Translations under genes and position numbers: made by a program
In this document: positions 56,508 through 64,000 of the stretch, in pieces
How the letters are laid out: every line of letters starts with the position of its first letter
Position numbering within the stretch: the stretch's first letter is position 1
Notes under the pieces: generated by a model
What the model saw: only the letters and a program-made list of their open reading frames with translations
Told to the model about the DNA's origin: nothing
The model's database searches: none
NCBI RefSeq assembly: GCF_029891735.1
Contig: NZ_JANQDH010000033.1
Span: forward strand, 1-64,000
From: Chrysosporum bergii ANA360D
GTDB lineage: Bacteria; Cyanobacteriota; Cyanobacteriia; Cyanobacteriales; Nostocaceae
Reading direction: 5' to 3'
DNA length: 64,000 nucleotides

Positions 56508-56542
56508 GTCATAAACCCATACCTGTGTAAGTATAGCAGCAT

Positions 56543-57093
56543 TTACGCTGTCAACGCCACAGCCTCCTGAGTGGGTATCACTTTAGCATATCCGAAAGCC
56601 AAGGCCGCCATAAAAGAACAGTGAACCTCTAAAGCTGATGTAAAATGACCGTAAAATTCAAGATTACTAGCCGCACAGGCATCATGAGCAACAATACAGT
56701 CAAACCCCAAATCATAAGCTGCACGAGTTGTTGCATCTATACACATATTGCTCATGGCTCCACAAATTACCAATTTTTCCACCCCAGCACTATGTAAACC
56801 TTCCAAAAGATTAGTCTGTCGAAAACTATTGGCGAACTCTTTTATAATAATCTTTTCGTCTGCTTGGGGTTTAACAGATTCGTGTATCTCAGCACCACGA
56901 GTACCAACCACGAAAAACGGTGCTTGAGGATTTTTGGCTATATGTTGAACATGGAAAACCGGCCAATTTTGGCTACGAAAAGCACTCAGCAACCTAGCAG
57001 CATTTAGCGCCGCCATATCCATACCCACAAGTTCCCATTTCCCCCTGGGAAATAATCACGCTGAATATCAACTAAGACTAAGGCGGTTTTCAT
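56543..57093 (-). pseudogene. Isochorismatase-family cysteine hydrolase, single-base frameshift
   Basis: The 3' frame (from 57028) gives 161 residues with catalytic Cys in ICGAMSNMCIDATTRAAYDLG and the family tail HDACAASNLEFYG. The expected N-terminus lies upstream in another frame: ATG 57093 reads MKTALVLVDIQRDYFPGG, with the catalytic Asp in VDIQRDYF and an AGGAG site. The two frames join at a G5 run (57041-57045 on the complement). One extra G restores …FPGGKWELVGMDMAALNAAR…. Either a true inactivating frameshift or a homopolymer sequencing error. Expected activity is hydrolysis of amides or isochorismate-like substrates. Confidence 0.85.
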
Positions 57094-57129: not shown

Positions 57130-57768
57130 TTACCGTAGCCTATATGACATCAGTTTACAACTTGGTGATTCTTGAATAGATGAAAATATCTTCTTACCTT
57201 GGAATATATATGAATCATAGGGTAATGTTACTTCTTCCTGAAAGCCTACCTTGCGAAATACATTTTGAGATGTAATTCCAGTTGCTTCAGAAATCGCCAC
57301 AGAAAAATAATTTAGCCTGGCTAACCTTAAATTCTCTTTGAGAAGATTGGTAGCAATTTTTTGATTTTTGTATTCCTCTTTAACCCCTAGTAACAAAATA
57401 TGCAATGTTTGCCATGCTTCCCAATATTGGTATTTAGCAAAATAACTATATTCTAACCTCTCTAGAAACTTGTGAATTGGTTCAAACTTATGACTAATTT
57501 CCTGAATATAAAGAGGTATTGCCATCAAATGTTTTGAGATGACAAAACCAACAATCTGTGCATTAGCAGCGGTGGCAACAATAGAAAGCCTATCCTCAAT
57601 TGCCTTGAATAAATAAGGTTCCAGGAATCGTCTAAATTCTTGATAATTTATCTTCAAACTTTTAGTGATTGGCTCATTATTAACAAATAATTGAGAGCAT
57701 AAATCAACAGTTTGCTCAAAATCACCTGATTCCATAACTCTAAATTTTACCTTTTCTTGCTCATCCAT
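57130..57768 (-). CDS. GNAT-family acetyltransferase
   Basis: 212 residues with a GNAT-like fold: FRVMESGDFEQTVDLCSQLF (β1-α1), ATAANAQIVGFVISK (β4) and the acetyl-CoA loop region LLLGVKEEYKNQKIATNLLK (R/QxxGxxA replaced by Q-K-I-A). It ends SQNVFRKVGFQEEVTLPYDS. The length and long insert (about 80-130) recall arylalkylamine-type N-acetyltransferases. It lies on the same strand as the PixA-like cluster but behind a strong terminator (57779-57825), so it may be transcribed separately or only by read-through. An amine from the upstream decarboxylase would be a natural substrate; that is inference. Confidence 0.75.
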   Translation of the reverse strand: MDEQEKVKFRVMESGDFEQTVDLCSQLFVNNEPITKSLKINYQEFRRFLEPYLFKAIEDRLSIVATAANAQIVGFVISKHLMAIPLYIQEISHKFEPIHKFLERLEYSYFAKYQYWEAWQTLHILLLGVKEEYKNQKIATNLLKENLRLARLNYFSVAISEATGITSQNVFRKVGFQEEVTLPYDSYIFQGKKIFSSIQESPSCKLMSYRLR

Positions 57769-57778
57769 AACTCACTTG

Positions 57779-57825
57779 AAAAAAAATTATCAAGGCTATA
57801 AGAAACCCGTACACAAAGCCTTGAT
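57779..57825 (-). terminator. Intrinsic terminator of the PixA-like operon
   Basis: On the minus strand ATCAAGGCT (57825-57817) pairs with AGCCTTGAT (57797-57789), then AATTTTTTTT follows (57788-57779). It is a textbook stem with a U8 tract, about 80 bp after the last PixA-like gene. Confidence 0.85.
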
Positions 57826-57906
57826 ATGTAAAAACTCTGGTGTGAGCAACCATGCCCACACCATATTTATAATTACATAAACCTTAGCTCATGTAATTAC
57901 AAGTAA

Positions 57907-58470
57907 TTAATATTGTCCCTCTGTCACGCCAATTACTTTGAAAGAGGGCTTTTCTTCAGTGTGTAAATACACTTTCTCTTTTTTGCCTTCCTGCTCAAGT
58001 TCCAGAACCAACCTGTAATTATAAACACCTGGTTTTAAAGTGCTTAACACGGCTCCTGCCCAATAATAATAAACAGGGCAATAACGATGGCGCATCATAT
58101 CAGGACCGCCATAAATCTTTAACTCACTGCAAATCTTAGTTTCTGAAAATTCCTCGTTGTCACCCTCTTGTTGGCTGTCCAGAAAAACAATGTTATTGAT
58201 TTTCGGCATAGGTGGCCATGTTCCATCTGGTCTCTTTTCCATATCCATAGGATAGATAATCCAGTTGATAACCTGCCCAGGCTTACAAACAGTTTGCAAA
58301 TGACCTGTTCCCTGACCAGTACCACCCACACTATTGTCCATCATGTAATAGGTGTCTTTCAGTGAGTTATTTTTCACAGCTTTGTGAATATCTATCACAG
58401 TAACTATGTTCAGCTGTACTGAATTTAGCTGTCCTGGATTTTGCTTCTTGAGAGTTGAGTTATTTGACAT
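57907..58470 (-). CDS. PixA/AidA-family inclusion-body-type protein, paralogue 4
   Basis: 187 residues. Motifs of the PixA/AidA family are clear: IVTVIDIHKAVKNNSLKDTYYM (N-terminal strand-helix), MMDNSVGGTGQGTGHLQTVC, KPGQVINWIIYPMD, FLDSQQEGDNEE, YYYWAGAVLSTLKPGVYNYR and LVLELEQEGKKEKVYLHTEE. It has a loop insert (MDMEKRPDGTWPPMPKIN). The family contains PixA of Xenorhabdus inclusion bodies and quorum-regulated AidA; neither has a firm role in metabolism. Last gene before the terminator; 87 bp after paralogue 3. Soluble, no signal peptide. Confidence 0.88.
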   Translation of the reverse strand: MSNNSTLKKQNPGQLNSVQLNIVTVIDIHKAVKNNSLKDTYYMMDNSVGGTGQGTGHLQTVCKPGQVINWIIYPMDMEKRPDGTWPPMPKINNIVFLDSQQEGDNEEFSETKICSELKIYGGPDMMRHRYCPVYYYWAGAVLSTLKPGVYNYRLVLELEQEGKKEKVYLHTEEKPSFKVIGVTEGQY

Positions 58471-58557
58471 GATTTTCTTCTTGCTGAATTGAACAAGTTG
58501 TGAATTTCCGCAGACTATGAAGTCAAAAAATGCCGTGGCAAAATATCAAGCCTAGTT

Positions 58558-58962
58558 TTAATTGTTACCAATCAGATAAAGAGGAGTAGCTGTTGGTATT
58601 GGCTCGGCTCTAGTTCCACAGAGAAATTCAATGTTGTAGGGAACTTCTTGAACATCTTCCTTAACGATACCAATCCAGTAGGCAACATCAGTACCTTCAT
58701 AAACCTTCTTTTCTGGCTCGCAATATTTGCGGTCGATGATAATATCAGCGATCGCTGCATAGGCTTCACATTCTAAGAATGTTACTGTCCACACCAATCG
58801 ATCCCCTTTGTTCACCATGGTTTTTAAACTCTCAGTACCATGACCTGTGGAACCATTGGCTTTTTCAGAGTCCTGAAAATAGACCTGTCCACTCAGAGAA
58901 TCAGTAGCCAAAGCTCCCACAACATCTATTACACTGGCGATTGTTATTGTTTTCATTGCCAT
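58558..58962 (-). CDS. PixA/AidA-family inclusion-body-type protein, paralogue 3
   Basis: 134 residues, the shortest and most divergent copy. It shares IASVIDVVGALATDSLSGQVYF (residues 7-28), SEKANGSTGHGTESLKTMVN, KGDRLVWTVTFLECEAYAAI and VPYNIEFLCGTR. The MMDN motif of other copies is replaced by QDSEK, and PGQVIxW by KGDRLVW. The start is placed at ATG 58962 (or 58956); the frame upstream has no family similarity. 51 bp separate it from paralogue 2. Family membership is inferred from shared spacing rather than a full motif set. Confidence 0.75.
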   Translation of the reverse strand: MAMKTITIASVIDVVGALATDSLSGQVYFQDSEKANGSTGHGTESLKTMVNKGDRLVWTVTFLECEAYAAIADIIIDRKYCEPEKKVYEGTDVAYWIGIVKEDVQEVPYNIEFLCGTRAEPIPTATPLYLIGNN

Positions 58963-59013
58963 AACCTGTCTTACATTGTTTAAGATTGTGTTCAAAAATC
59001 AAGCCGCTGATTA

Positions 59014-59829
59014 TTACATAGGAATTGGTAAGTATCCCATACCCGCCTTGGTAAACCCATTGACCTTGGGATCATTGGATATCTTGATATACGCCTCATG
59101 GGTAAAGTCTACTGGTACCCATGCCCATGCTCCATCCTCACGGGAGAGCTTGTACAGCTGGATATGCATTGTGTAAGCATAGGTTCCTGGTCTAGAAGTA
59201 TCAACAGATGCAGCCCAGTACCAACCGTCTGTCACCATATCCGGAGATCCATAAGCAGCTGGGTAGATAATGTTTTTATCAACTGCTTCACCAGTGATAT
59301 TGGTGATAATGGGATTGAGAGAATTGATTTCAGGGATCTCTCCATCAACCTCAGTCACCAAATTCCCTGTGACATCCATGATTTTTTGTCCAACAGAGCC
59401 AAGTTCTTGTTGGGAACCACCATATTTACTTTTAACCTGGGTTTTTACCCCGGCGCTACCGGATATACCCTTGAGTAAATCAATCACTTGACTTATTTTT
59501 GTAGAGGCATTCACCTGTTCTATCAGGGCTTGAACCTCGTCTATTACCTTCAAATCACTATTTTTTGACTTTTCGGATAAGAAGCTCTTAGGTAGGGTGG
59601 GGGGTAGAGAACCAACCCCATAGGGTAACCAGTTCAATACCTGTTCATTAGCCTGGGAGCCATCACAGAAACTAGTACCATTGATCGCAGAAATCAATTT
59701 ACCAGTTCCTAAACCTTCTGACCCCTGTAACTTCATATTGTCGAAGAGGTAAGTATTACCTTCCAAGGTGTTAGCTGCTAAGGCAGCAGCAACATCAACG
59801 AGTAAGATTATTCCCAGCTGTTGGCTCAT
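59014..59829 (-). CDS. PixA/AidA-family protein with a large internal insertion, paralogue 2
   Basis: 271 residues from ATG 59829, which has AGGAGA 11 bp upstream. The frame opens 54 bp earlier without family sequence. The N-terminal part has GIILLVDVAAALAANTLEGN, YLFDNMKLQGSEGLGTGKLI and QVLNWLPYG. About 110 residues (KSFLSEKSKNSDLKVIDEVQ… GEAVDKNIIYPAAY) are inserted before the family C-terminus (YGSPDMVTDGWYWAASVD TSRPGTYAYTMHIQLYKL). The insert is rich in charged and helical sequence, absent from the other copies. It may give this paralogue a second binding surface. Confidence 0.85.
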   Translation of the reverse strand: MSQQLGIILLVDVAAALAANTLEGNTYLFDNMKLQGSEGLGTGKLISAINGTSFCDGSQANEQVLNWLPYGVGSLPPTLPKSFLSEKSKNSDLKVIDEVQALIEQVNASTKISQVIDLLKGISGSAGVKTQVKSKYGGSQQELGSVGQKIMDVTGNLVTEVDGEIPEINSLNPIITNITGEAVDKNIIYPAAYGSPDMVTDGWYWAASVDTSRPGTYAYTMHIQLYKLSREDGAWAWVPVDFTHEAYIKISNDPKVNGFTKAGMGYLPIPM

Positions 59830-59918
59830 AACGTTTCTTTCTCCTGAGTTTAAGTTTGTTTTCACTACACAATCGGTGATCAAATACCGTTTGTGCTGGC
59901 TTTTTCATGGGCTGGCAG

Positions 59919-60356
59919 TTAAATTCGCTTCAAGGCAGGGGTATCTACATACATAAAACAGTTCTTGCCTTCATACATCTGTAGCTCAAATCTATACTTG
60001 TACTCCACCCCAGGCACAAGGTAATATGGCACAATACCAGACCAAACATTGACGTGCAGCTTATCGCTTTGCAGTGTTGTCGGGTCTTCTGGAATTGGTT
60101 GAACACTAGTACCATCTTGGTTAAGAAAAACAATATTTCTGATGGCTACTGGTGTTTGCAAATCAAGAGCTAAAATTGTCCAGTGTATAACTTGTCCTGG
60201 AGTACACAAGGTAACTAAGTCTGGTGTTCCTTGATTTAAGCTACCCCAAGGACTATTGTCCATCATGCAAAGATTACCATTTAACAGGGTGCCGCTAGAA
60301 AGCGATTCAATCACATCAACAACAGTGAATATGCTGATTTTTGATTCCATCTCCAT
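59919..60356 (-). CDS. PixA/AidA-family inclusion-body-type protein, paralogue 1
   Basis: 145 residues from ATG 60356 (GAGGA site 6 bp upstream); a longer frame from 60452 lacks family sequence. Motifs: ISIFTVVDVIESLSSGTLLN, CMMDNSPWGSLNQGTPDLVT, CTPGQVIHWTILALDL, SDKLHVNVWSGIVPYYLVPG and YKYRFELQMYEGKNCFMYVD. It is the canonical form among the four. 204 bp lie between it and the PaaK-like gene, and a hairpin (60498-60534) occurs in that gap, so the PixA-like genes may also have their own promoter. Confidence 0.9.
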   Translation of the reverse strand: MEMESKISIFTVVDVIESLSSGTLLNGNLCMMDNSPWGSLNQGTPDLVTLCTPGQVIHWTILALDLQTPVAIRNIVFLNQDGTSVQPIPEDPTTLQSDKLHVNVWSGIVPYYLVPGVEYKYRFELQMYEGKNCFMYVDTPALKRI

Positions 60357-60497
60357 AATATTCCTCGCCGTTATTTTATGTGTAACAAAACAGCAGTTGA
60401 CACTCCCCTGACATTCAGAAGATTCTTGTTTAATCAGCTGATCTGAAAACATCCAGAATTTGCTCTTGACAAGCCTACTAGAATATTTAATCTAGGG

Positions 60498-60534
60498 TTC
60501 GGGCGTGACATTCCCTACCTTGTTTTGTACACCC
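60498..60534 (-). promoter_or_regulatory. Inverted repeat between the enzyme pair and the PixA-like genes
   Basis: TTCGGGCGT (60498-60506) and ACACCCGAA (60526-60534) pair with one mismatch-type G-T. No U-tract follows on the minus strand, so regulation or RNA stability is more likely than termination. Confidence 0.4.
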
Positions 60535-60560
60535 GAAAGGGACTCAAGAGTTAACTAAGT

Positions 60561-62102
60561 TTAAAAAATGTCTCTGATGAAAGGAACTTTACCCAAGGGA
60601 GTTCTATAGATTTCTTCAGACCACTTTTTAACTAGTTTGATATCAAACCTGTAGCCACTCTTTTCTATGTAATATACATTAGCTTCCCCTCGGTTGAATA
60701 TAGATAAAGAATAGATTAAGGATTCCAGGAATAAACGTTTAATTCCTTCACTTCCTAGCATATTATCCATTCTGATAAACAAACTCTTCACATCATCTAC
60801 CGCAGCAATTAATTCCAACCGTTTGATGGCGCGATGGTTGACAAACTGTATTTCGTGCGCCAGTGCTTGCAAGTCAAAAACACCAGCAGCCTTTAATTCA
60901 TGGCAAAGAGAAGCATAGACCTGGGGAGCAGAATATTGTGTGTCATCAATATGAATAACATCCCCACTGCGGCCTAAAAACTCAAATTGTTGGGTTTTTA
61001 ATCCTGGCCCGTCTAAATTGGGGCGACGAATGACTCTATCTCCCGATTTAAATCTGAGAAAAGGTGCTTCATGTCCATGAAGTCTAGTTACCACTAACTC
61101 CCCTTCTTCTCCTTCAGCAACCCACTTTCCGTCACTGTCTACAATCTCAATCATGTGTAGCCCTGGAACTGCTGCCAAATAGGGAATTTCTGACTTCAAC
61201 TGCAAGCCAATAGCTTCGTTTTGTACTGTGGCAAAGTAACTTAAAATCTCTAGATTAGGATAAAGCTCTTTTAGTTCAAGTTGTTTACGATGTGGTAATA
61301 TCCCACTACCATACATGGCTACGCGGAAACTTTTTCTCGCTTCCTCATGTAGGCCAATACCAAGGTCGCTGAGAATTGCTATTCCTGCGGAAATCGCCAT
61401 AATTGCCTTGGGTCCTGGATAGGACATAATATGGTGAAAGACTTCCCTCATCACAGGACCCGCACCAAGATAGTTAATGCCTGGTATGTGCTGTAAAACA
61501 CCACCAACCATTGTGCCGCTACTCCACATCTGAAAGTCTGCCAAGGTAGTAGCAACCCATTTCGGCTCATCCCCTGTTAAGTAATTACTTAACATATATT
61601 CGCCAATAAATTCCCCGGCGATTTTGTAGGTGTCGTGTAATTCTTTTAATGAATAAACCATTTCTACTGGTAAACCAGTACTGGTTCCACCACTAGCAAC
61701 AATTTCAAAACCACCATAGCTTAAAGGAACTACTAAACCTGGTCTAGATCCCATAAACAACTCACCCATAACAGTCTTATCAGAGATGGGTAATTGTTGC
61801 CATTCCTCAAAATTCCGGGGAGCTTTGTTCAGACCCGCCTTCTCAATCATATCTTTCCACATAGGATTGAGCATTAAAGTATTGGTCATTTGTTGCAACC
61901 GCCGCAACACCAAAGCATTTTGAATGGAATGATCAAGTTCACTATATTTAGTTTCAAAAACTCTTTCACATTGTTGAATTTTACTCAAAAAGGAAGGTAG
62001 TTTAACCACGTCATCAATTGACTGTGGCTCCAACTCATCAGACCCTATCAACTGATTTACTAACTCTTGATTAGATATGGATACTTTATTTTCAGCCAAC
62101 AT
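60561..62102 (-). CDS. Phenylacetate-CoA-ligase/LuxE-like adenylate-forming enzyme
   Basis: 513 residues. The P-loop-like motif is SGGTSTGLP (137-145), with LSYGGFEIVA before it. Further PaaK-like blocks are YGSGILPHRKQLELKELYPN, EGEEGELVVTRLHGHEAPFL and FKSGDRVIRRP (the R-x-K-x-G-D motif where ATP is bound). Such enzymes activate an acid as an acyl-adenylate, then transfer it to CoA or another acceptor. No carrier-protein domain is attached. The carboxylate substrate is not visible. It begins 4 bp after the decarboxylase stop, so the two are likely co-translated. Confidence 0.87.
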   Translation of the reverse strand: MLAENKVSISNQELVNQLIGSDELEPQSIDDVVKLPSFLSKIQQCERVFETKYSELDHSIQNALVLRRLQQMTNTLMLNPMWKDMIEKAGLNKAPRNFEEWQQLPISDKTVMGELFMGSRPGLVVPLSYGGFEIVASGGTSTGLPVEMVYSLKELHDTYKIAGEFIGEYMLSNYLTGDEPKWVATTLADFQMWSSGTMVGGVLQHIPGINYLGAGPVMREVFHHIMSYPGPKAIMAISAGIAILSDLGIGLHEEARKSFRVAMYGSGILPHRKQLELKELYPNLEILSYFATVQNEAIGLQLKSEIPYLAAVPGLHMIEIVDSDGKWVAEGEEGELVVTRLHGHEAPFLRFKSGDRVIRRPNLDGPGLKTQQFEFLGRSGDVIHIDDTQYSAPQVYASLCHELKAAGVFDLQALAHEIQFVNHRAIKRLELIAAVDDVKSLFIRMDNMLGSEGIKRLFLESLIYSLSIFNRGEANVYYIEKSGYRFDIKLVKKWSEEIYRTPLGKVPFIRDIF

Positions 62103-62106
62103 ATTT

Positions 62107-63696
62107 TTACTTACTTCTTTTGTATTCAGAACTGATGGTTTGTTTTTGTTGTTTTTGATTGATTAACTCTTGTCCAGTTTTTCTAATTTCAGATAGCAAC
62201 ATACCTATGTGAGTACTATTGATCTGATGGTTCATAAAAACTAGACGCAGAGATGGTATACCATTAATGTCAATTTTGGAAATGAAGAATTTACCGCACT
62301 CTTTGATGCGGTTCCTAATTTCCACCTGAAAATTGGGAAACTCTGATTCCACTAAGTTGGAGGGTAAATAACGAAAACAAAGGATATTCACCTCTGGTTG
62401 GTGAAGCACCTGGAAGTCAGGTTCTCCCTTGAGGATCTGATAAGCTTCTTTGGTCAACTCACACAAATACTCGATCTTGTCAGCAAATACAGCCTTGCCA
62501 TAAATAGCCCACAATACCCACAGGTTCATGATCAGAGGTCTTTTAGTACACTCAAAATTTTGTTCTCCACTATCAAATTGAGTGTAGATATCAGGAGTCT
62601 TTTCAAAAACATAACTGGCGTTCTGATGGAATGCTCCATAACTTTTTTCTCTATTTCTATAGAAAAGAAGAGTACACACCCCTGGTAGAAACATCATCTT
62701 GTGAGCGTCCCACACAAAGGAATCTACTTTTTCAATTCCCTTTAACTTGTGGCGCAATTGATCGGAAACTAGTAGACTTGCACCATGGGCCCCATCTACA
62801 TGAAGCCAGATATTTTTCTCTTTTGCTATCTTTGCCAGTTCCTCCAACTGGTCAAAAGCTCCTACTGCAGTAGTACCCGCAGAAGCCACCAGACAGAAAA
62901 CTTTGAGGCCTCGTTGTTCTGCTGCTTCTAGGGTAGGACGCACCTTCTCTATACAAATTTGCCGTTGACTATTAACCGGTAAGCGGACGATCTGATTTTC
63001 TCCAACCCCTATGATCCCTACTGCACGCTGGAGACTGTAATGTGCATCCTCGCTCAAGGCAATTGCTGGGCGACATTGTCCCGCCAACGCAGATACACCC
63101 CCAGACCAAATCTCGGGAAACTTGTCATTTCTGGCCGCCAAGAGGGCTGTTAAGTTGCCTAATGTCGCCCCTGAAGTTGTCACCATGGCAAAATTATCCG
63201 GATCCCAACCAATGAATTTGTTTAATTCATCAGCCATGATCCGTTCCACCACATTGGGTAACTGTCCAGCTTCATAAAAGGAGGATGGTTGATTGACAAT
63301 TGAGCTAATCAAGTCAACGATACCAGCCAAGGGAATCACACCAGAAAACTGGCGACCCATATAACCGGGGGAGTACACTTGTATGCCCGTTTTAATATAT
63401 AAGTCAATAATTGCCCCTAGCCTTTCTGCATCAAAGGGAGCGATGCTTTCCTGTTCCTCAGTCATTAGATCCTTTGCAGATTCCAATAGAACATAAGGAT
63501 TGGTCAGTTCCAGCCCCCGGATTGACGAATCAGCTAAATATTTTTCTAACTTGCCAATCACTAATTCAGCGGTTTTCCTAAACAATTCAGGATCAAAAAC
63601 ATCCTGCTGAGGACTTGATGGGATATCATTGTTGATAGTATAACCACGCTCTTGTATACAGGTACTCCAAAAATCAGTATCACCACGTAATTGCAT
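62107..63696 (-). CDS. PLP-dependent group II amino acid decarboxylase
   Basis: 529 residues. Removes the carboxyl group from an amino acid to give an amine. The PLP-binding Lys333 lies in SFVWDAHKMMFLPGVC, and Asp301 in LHVDGAHGAS contacts the pyridine nitrogen. VTTSGATLGNLTALLAARND and CLVASAGTTAVGAFDQLEEL are typical of Pfam pyridoxal_deC members such as glutamate, DABA and aromatic decarboxylases. Substrate cannot be told by eye. ATG 63696 is preferred to GTG 63708. It is the first gene in this strand's cluster, and its upstream 300 bp hold no gene. Confidence 0.9.
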   Translation of the reverse strand: MQLRGDTDFWSTCIQERGYTINNDIPSSPQQDVFDPELFRKTAELVIGKLEKYLADSSIRGLELTNPYVLLESAKDLMTEEQESIAPFDAERLGAIIDLYIKTGIQVYSPGYMGRQFSGVIPLAGIVDLISSIVNQPSSFYEAGQLPNVVERIMADELNKFIGWDPDNFAMVTTSGATLGNLTALLAARNDKFPEIWSGGVSALAGQCRPAIALSEDAHYSLQRAVGIIGVGENQIVRLPVNSQRQICIEKVRPTLEAAEQRGLKVFCLVASAGTTAVGAFDQLEELAKIAKEKNIWLHVDGAHGASLLVSDQLRHKLKGIEKVDSFVWDAHKMMFLPGVCTLLFYRNREKSYGAFHQNASYVFEKTPDIYTQFDSGEQNFECTKRPLIMNLWVLWAIYGKAVFADKIEYLCELTKEAYQILKGEPDFQVLHQPEVNILCFRYLPSNLVESEFPNFQVEIRNRIKECGKFFISKIDINGIPSLRLVFMNHQINSTHIGMLLSEIRKTGQELINQKQQKQTISSEYKRSK

Positions 63697-64000
63697 GATT
63701 ATAAACACTCAAGACGAACAATGAACGTTAAACCTAGTTTTTTGTTGCCAAATTGGCAGAAAAACTGTCTTCATTTGTACTGTTGATTAACCCTTGTTGT
63801 CAAGAGTAAATTTAAAAAAAACATAAAGATTGCTGTTGTGATGTTCCTAATTAGCAATTAAACTTAGTTTTTTTAATGTAGCTAATTTTACTTAATTTAG
63901 TATACTGGGGAAGATGCCGGCACTACCAGCTTGGGATTTTTTTAATTTGACCGAAATATCAACAGAAAGGAACTTGACACTCCCCACGGCTTTAGCCGGG
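63697..64000. promoter_or_regulatory. Upstream region of the decarboxylase-PixA cluster
   Basis: About 300 AT-rich bases without a gene (on the minus strand these precede the cluster). Near the window edge, TTGACACTCCCCACGGCTTT (63974-63993) followed by AGCCGGG contains an interrupted stem (CCCACGGCT/AGCCGGGG-like). It resembles palindromes found near IS200/IS605-type ends in cyanobacteria. The element continues past the window. Confidence 0.4.

Follow-up and report, generated by a model that had tools for sequence, protein, structure and literature searches.

The stretch of DNA analysed here, called the window, comprises 64,000 nucleotides of contig NZ_JANQDH010000033.1 of the cyanobacterium Chrysosporum bergii ANA360D (genome of 3.9 Mb in 120 contigs) and contains a cassette of six genes for two putative enzymes and four small paralogous proteins, here named X1 to X4. 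It is well supported that these six genes form one conserved unit across Cyanobacteria, Actinomycetota, Bacteroidota, rhizobia and one Aminicenantes metagenome-assembled genome (MAG). The six core open reading frames (ORFs) are all open and lie on the minus strand at the positions given in a preliminary description of this DNA, in the 5'→3' order decarboxylase, ligase, X4, X3, X2 and X1. The first (62107–63708; GTG at 63708, ATG at 63696) encodes a group II decarboxylase dependent on pyridoxal 5'-phosphate (PLP) with a match to Pfam PF00282 of 4.2e-54. Its stop codon (62107) lies four bases from the ATG (62102) of the second gene (60561–62102), which encodes a divergent PaaK-like ligase, putatively an adenylate-forming enzyme of the ANL superfamily, and this spacing of 4 bp is the one reported earlier. 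Four paralogues of predicted PixA/Mak fold follow: X4 (59919–60356), nearest the ligase, for which homologues favour a start near 60356 over the longer ORF start at 60452; X3 (59014–59829), with a long helical insertion; X2 (58558–58962), the closest of the four to MakC and MakD in sequence; and X1 (57907–58470), the most conserved of the four. Two terminator-like hairpins are found 3' of X1 on the same strand (57779–57863). An 11-bp hairpin at 57863–57838 was listed by a terminator scan, and a 9-bp stem with a long loop and a U8 tract was read by eye at 57825–57779; the latter is the intrinsic terminator said to close the cluster, which the scan leaves unlisted because it accepts loops of 3–8 only. 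The scan found 10 such sites compared with 6.5 (standard deviation 2.5) in shuffled sequences and is thus weak taken alone. The six core genes look to be under selection, since the ratio of nonsynonymous to synonymous substitution rates (dN/dS) between the window and a Dolichospermum copy is 0.085–0.144, with dS values of 0.69–1.56 that are partly saturated.

The gene order was followed through several collections. A scan of a genome collection with two ligase peptide patterns, by which distant versions of the cassette are missed, gave 24 loci, comprising 13 cyanobacterial loci, 8 actinobacterial loci (6 Streptomyces, Actinomadura and Actinacidiphila), Filimonas, a Paludibacteraceae MAG and an Aminicenantes MAG (L037), whose assignment may be a binning error. 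The cassette is complete in 19 of the 24, with all six genes covered over more than 80% and in the same order and strand. Contig ends truncate L029, L042 and L049, the last of which is also frame-shifted in the ligase and X4; in L028, half of the decarboxylase, the first, is missing; and L038, from a Symploca MAG, carries decarboxylase and ligase fragments and then a full ligase. These fragments ahead of the full-length ligase (L025:201–1002, on the same contig as L038) reflect decay, duplication or misassembly. In a survey of 388 genomes of the window's order, which includes some of the genomes behind the 24 loci (e.g., L017 and L026), the ligase is present in 9 genomes of 8 genera, the source genome included, and the X1 profile marks exactly these 9, matching four times in every one of them and nowhere in the remaining 379. 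Around the ligase, the gene order is kept in these genomes, with one locus split over two contigs (G261) and one broken at the decarboxylase end (G118). Similarly, searches of 72,556 plasmid records with the ligase, X1 and X2 each gave one identical set of 7 records (5 from Bradyrhizobium, 1 from Sinorhizobium and 1 from Nonomuraea), and all four plasmid loci opened out of these 7 carry the six genes in order; the rhizobial data come from plasmids only. In Bradyrhizobium barranii, the cassette genes almost touch or overlap, and transposase/recombinase genes lie nearby. The ligase and X genes are labelled "hypothetical protein" in three rhizobial plasmid records, and the Nonomuraea stretch is unannotated. 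Three further Streptomycetales loci, with DNA 79–88% identical to the nearest known loci, also have the six genes in order (3/3). Since the same order recurs across phyla, the arrangement is beyond chance, and adjacency restricted to this strain, which the preliminary description had named as the outcome that would refute its cluster, is ruled out by the survey that it had proposed. The explanation that the genes cluster by chance or within a lineage without any joint function has next to no probability; the fixed order and the strict co-occurrence across phyla refute it as far as these collections reach.

The cassette is rare and patchy. It is present in 5 of 293 Streptomycetales genomes including the centre genome, in 1 of 295 genomes of the class of Filimonas (Filimonas itself), in 2 of 292 genomes sampled from the window's phylum and in one of two genomes of the window's genus. 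The congeneric genome G1190 (89% complete) is without the cassette at the same site: its flanks are syntenic with the window up to about position 56519 and from about 64051, and about 1.7 kb of other genes replace about 7.5 kb. No cassette query matched this 1.7-kb stretch better than E 0.004. On contig 37 of G1190 (L090), the site is occupied instead by a 185-aa ORF and a 414-aa ORF, which by eye we take to be RDD-like and MoeA-like, respectively. The distance matrices of the six proteins from 22 loci are correlated with r of 0.85–0.95, a correlation to which shared host ancestry also contributes, and none of 2000 permutations reached the observed value in each of the 15 pairs. Meanwhile, all X-profile matches in 8 carrier genomes from four lineages fall inside the cassette. 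In a concatenated tree, rooted on the rhizobia by choice, 9 cyanobacterial loci form one clade (support 1.0) and 8 actinobacterial loci form another (0.92).

The X proteins fall into four clades with support of 0.902, 0.954, 0.999 and 1.0, and in 88 of 88 cases an X protein has its best counterpart in another locus at the corresponding position, so that X1–X4 are not redundant. Judged by these sequences, they constitute four orthologous groups, whose duplicates would have diverged before the cassette spread and would all have been retained. Profile comparisons link X1 to X2, X3 and X4, and X2 to X4, with probabilities of 98.2–99.7, the link to X3 spanning 59 columns; the earlier view of four paralogous proteins side by side on one strand is borne out. 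Their placement in the PixA/AidA family, for which a search with PF12306 had been suggested, holds in part. PF12306 (cut-off 21 bits) matches none of X1–X4 of the window at E up to 10, gives no match across the source genome or in 14 control genomes and finds two weak matches among 24 X members (best E 0.039). The NCBIfam model MakCD (NF049870), on the other hand, matches all 24 members at E up to 1 (best 5.3e-24), and the window proteins score 46.2, 61.7, 34.9 and 47.8 bits, all under the cut-off of 110 bits (E of 4.2e-12 for X1, 6.7e-17 for X2, 1.3e-8 for X3 and 1.3e-12 for the 177-aa ORF of X4). Profiles of X1, X2 and X4 match the structure 8rqy, which belongs to the study of MakC and MakD, at 5.2e-8, 7.7e-20 and 7.1e-11, respectively, and X2 matches MakD at 3.9e-15. 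AlphaFold models of X3 and X1 are of medium confidence, with a mean predicted local distance difference test score (pLDDT) of 73.4 and 73.9. The X3 model matches 8rqy with Z 16.4, MakD with 15.9 and the Burkholderia PixA structure 4lzk with 13.7 (root-mean-square deviation 3.1, 139 aligned residues), and the X1 model matches them with 13.9, 13.4 and 12.8 (3.5, 143 aligned residues); 4q52, 4pib and SO1698 follow with Z of about 9–11. X1 and X3 are therefore predicted to take the PixA beta-sandwich fold. As their models match MakC/MakD and then PixA structures, the X proteins belong to the PixA superfamily by modelled fold (X1 and X3) and are MakCD-like by sequence, under the cut-off of that family; the assignment to PixA stands for the modelled fold and fails for PF12306.

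These data bear on two other explanations of the X proteins. One is that they are enzymes themselves, a catalytic set of PixA fold by which the products of the decarboxylase and the ligase would be condensed or tailored. The fold is common to SO1698, which is titled an aspartic peptidase in PDB entries (Z 10.2 for X3 and 10.6 for X1), each X protein has invariant polar residues of its own (D45, N69, D82, K118 and D124 in 12/12 X1 proteins), and the core is without another condensing enzyme. However, no catalytic residue set is common to all four, the only residues invariant over 24 X members being D45, W70, W137 and Y152 (X1 numbering), and the residues of SO1698 could not be mapped onto the X proteins; as the fold alone shows no function, we regard this explanation as unlikely. 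The other, close to the view of the preliminary description, is that the X proteins serve for sequestration or self-protection by capturing the end product and keeping it in inclusions, which agrees with the first description of PixA, as a protein of inclusion bodies in Xenorhabdus (excerpts of PMC9060813). Four distinct and strictly co-conserved paralogues are more than a simple binder needs, however, and MakC and MakD are soluble and cytosolic in the excerpts of PMC11484084, so that sequestration also appears rather improbable.

The decarboxylase belongs to the group II PLP-dependent decarboxylases on account of its PF00282 match and of K333, and its nearest solved relative is glutamate decarboxylase 1 (GAD1; 3vp6, 3.3e-56). 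Residues H219, D301, K333 and R484 are invariant in 14/14 aligned members, and we take them to be the stacking His, the PLP-pairing Asp, the PLP lysine and an Arg that aligns with the substrate-binding Arg of GAD1, respectively. The Gln of the GAD1 pocket loop (FFNQLS) is replaced by an invariant Arg, R115, and the Ser next to it in the loop by Phe. The model for PanP aspartate 1-decarboxylase matches all 14 members, with 169 bits against an equivalog cut-off of 606. Since the key residues are invariant but the pocket Gln and Ser are replaced, the enzyme is probably active on a different substrate than glutamate decarboxylase. For the ligase, no Pfam match was obtained with the window protein, and PF00501 matches 5/16 members (best 1.7e-4). 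Its profile matches phenylacetate-CoA ligase 4r1l at E 1.5e-11; it scores 18.4 bits against the 646-bit cut-off of the PaaK equivalog TIGR02155 and matches FlxY at 4.9e-9, far under the cut-off. The SGGT loop, the GD and GR motifs and the C-terminal Lys in a GK motif are invariant in 16/16 members, and presumably have the functional roles usual for such motifs in this superfamily. By these similarities, the ligase appears to be an outlying ANL-superfamily protein.

Beyond the terminators, two accessory genes lie on the same strand. The first (57130–57768) encodes a GNAT acetyltransferase with 21.7 bits against a cut-off of 20.7 for PF00583; a GNAT gene also adjoins the cassette in Dolichospermum/Aphanizomenon copies, and the L020 copy is 37% identical and on the other strand. 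The second (56543–57093; PF00857, 1.6e-34) encodes an isochorismatase-family hydrolase, a recurrent partner that falls outside the bounds of 57779–63708 proposed earlier, within which the six genes do lie. Its frame changes near the start (57030–57093), where residues 1–22 and 15–183 are matched by tblastn in different frames; it is either a young pseudogene or an assembly error, and intact copies exist in related genomes. An isochorismatase-family gene stands beside the cassette in 10 of the 13 cyanobacterial loci, the other three being short contigs, and on the same strand in 3/3 rhizobial loci. Within about 10 kb, no other family of flanking genes recurs across lineages, the groups listed being housekeeping genes, regulators, transposases and run-on ORFs. 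This bears on the idea that the X proteins, like MakC and MakD, are accessory to the expression or export of a toxin and that the enzymes are incidental. The sequence-level relation of the X proteins to MakC/MakD agrees with it, but the lack of a further recurrent family in these neighbourhoods does not, and MakC and MakD are not essential for the secretion of MakA/B/E from E. coli (excerpts of PMC8617504), which makes it very unlikely. No pore-forming protein of the MakA/B/E type is annotated or recurs in the neighbourhoods read, with no search aimed at toxin families.

Several further genes were seen at individual loci. A SnoaL-like gene follows X1 in L022–L024 and is also found near L032 of Brasilonema, where two prephenate-dehydrogenase-domain genes follow X1 on the same strand (L032:14847–16918), a weak hint at an aromatic substrate or aromatic amino acids. 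A class I/II aminotransferase gene lies between the ligase and X4 in the Aminicenantes MAG (L037:5021–6202), and a 180-aa ORF without a Pfam match, which by eye we presume to resemble an HD-type hydrolase, occupies the same place in L022 (4097–4636). In Sinorhizobium alkalisoli, a gene for a CVNH (cyanovirin-type lectin) domain is situated about 1.4 kb before the annotated decarboxylase start (L052:6826–7269). An apparent decarboxylase–ligase fusion in L044 was dropped as an out-of-frame run-on ORF in GC-rich DNA. Seven pattern matches in viral contigs included none related to the ligase, none of five proteins matched PHROGs, and a search of Rfam gave nothing at E up to 0.1. PADLOC returned only weak PLP-fold matches of the decarboxylase (SspA and DndA at about 1e-4, Cas12i at 0.004), which we take as fold similarity and which give no sign of a phage-defence system.

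Taken together, the cassette can be read as a self-contained and horizontally transferable small-molecule operon in which the four PixA-fold proteins act as one cytoplasmic assembly, a reading that we advance tentatively and give somewhat short of an even chance. In this scheme, the decarboxylase would turn an amino acid into an amine, and the PaaK-like enzyme would adenylate a carboxylic acid and may hand it to the amine to give an amide. The non-interchangeable X1–X4, which are without recognised catalytic domains, would form one hetero-oligomeric assembly in the cytoplasm that is either the site where the enzymes act or a binder of an intermediate or product, and the isochorismatase-family hydrolase, where present, would trim or recycle the amide. 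It has been reported that MakC and MakD are dimers in crystals and stay in the cytosol (excerpts of PMC11484084). A more specific version is protein-templated assembly, in which the ligase would load the acid onto or into an X1–X4 heteromer, where it would be joined to the amine without a carrier protein or peptide synthetase; this we consider doubtful.

Several points weigh against the small-molecule operon. Its chemistry, the assembly and the role of the hydrolase are inferred, and the similarity of the ligase to known ANL families is so weak that one can only guess at its acceptor and at whether it is active at all. Cross-linking left MakD mostly monomeric (excerpts of PMC11484084), so that large complexes are not formed by all proteins of this fold. 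Among the neighbouring genes, there is no transporter, carrier protein or tailoring gene that recurs across lineages, which is unusual for a secreted natural product. Of the 12 actinobacterial loci read, 3 have the isochorismatase-family gene (on the opposite strand in L048 and L053, on the cassette strand in L081); its adjacency there may be due to chance because the family is common in actinobacteria. It is absent from L037, L042 and L046, and neither Bacteroidota locus carries it. Finally, the separation of the cyanobacterial and actinobacterial clades suggests that transfer between phyla is old or rare.

Host-associated bacteria produce PixA, AidA and MakC/MakD abundantly and under regulation. 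No biochemical role is established for these proteins, and the functions of MakC and MakD have been called unknown (excerpts of PMC11484084). With relatives of MakC/MakD tied over large evolutionary distances to two assayable enzymes, the function of the fold becomes testable. If protein-templated assembly were true, PixA, AidA and MakC/MakD would be relatives of assembly proteins, and the fold would gain its first biochemical role. The carriers include bloom-forming cyanobacteria, streptomycetes and root-nodule isolates with the genes on plasmids, which suggests an ecological role for a metabolite that genome annotation now misses.

Among known systems, MakC and MakD of the makDCBAE operon of Vibrio cholerae (NF049870) are similar to X1–X4 in fold and detectably related in sequence, and they are likewise small paralogues encoded side by side in an operon. 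Unlike the cassette, which has four orthologous X groups and two enzymes and whose window proteins score under the MakCD cut-off, the mak operon has two paralogues and three pore-forming proteins and is without a decarboxylase or ligase in the excerpts of PMC11484084. In the family PF12306 (PixA, AidA and Bnr1 of Xenorhabdus and Burkholderia), the PixA structure 4lzk resembles X3 and X1 in fold, and the paralogous genes aidA and bnr1 likewise share an operon of two genes; the family differs in that PF12306 is silent on the window proteins and that the excerpts of PMC9060813 mention no decarboxylase–ligase pair. SO1698 of Shewanella oneidensis (PDB 3n55 and mutants) has the same general fold as X1 and X3 (Z of about 10) and is a single protein. 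The decarboxylase is of the same family as PanP and glutamate decarboxylases, although it misses the PanP cut-off and carries the invariant Arg in place of the GAD1 pocket Gln. The ligase probably shares the ANL superfamily with the acyl-CoA ligases PaaK and FlxY, judging by weak sequence similarity, but it has no full-length match among them, is about 513 aa long compared with 436 aa for 4r1l and scores far under every equivalog cut-off. A further candidate for comparison is the pcfABCDEF operon of Photorhabdus, for which the excerpts of PMC4235431 and PMC4414361 give regulation and a clumping effect rather than gene families. In line with the preliminary description, which knew of no system with this composition, no account of such a decarboxylase–ligase–PixA cluster was found in searches of open-licence PubMed Central papers, judged by title and the opening of the abstract, and the composition is provisionally new as a category, pending its function. 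As its gene order is kept in cyanobacteria, soil actinobacteria, Bacteroidota and rhizobial plasmids, the cassette looks like a real but undescribed system.

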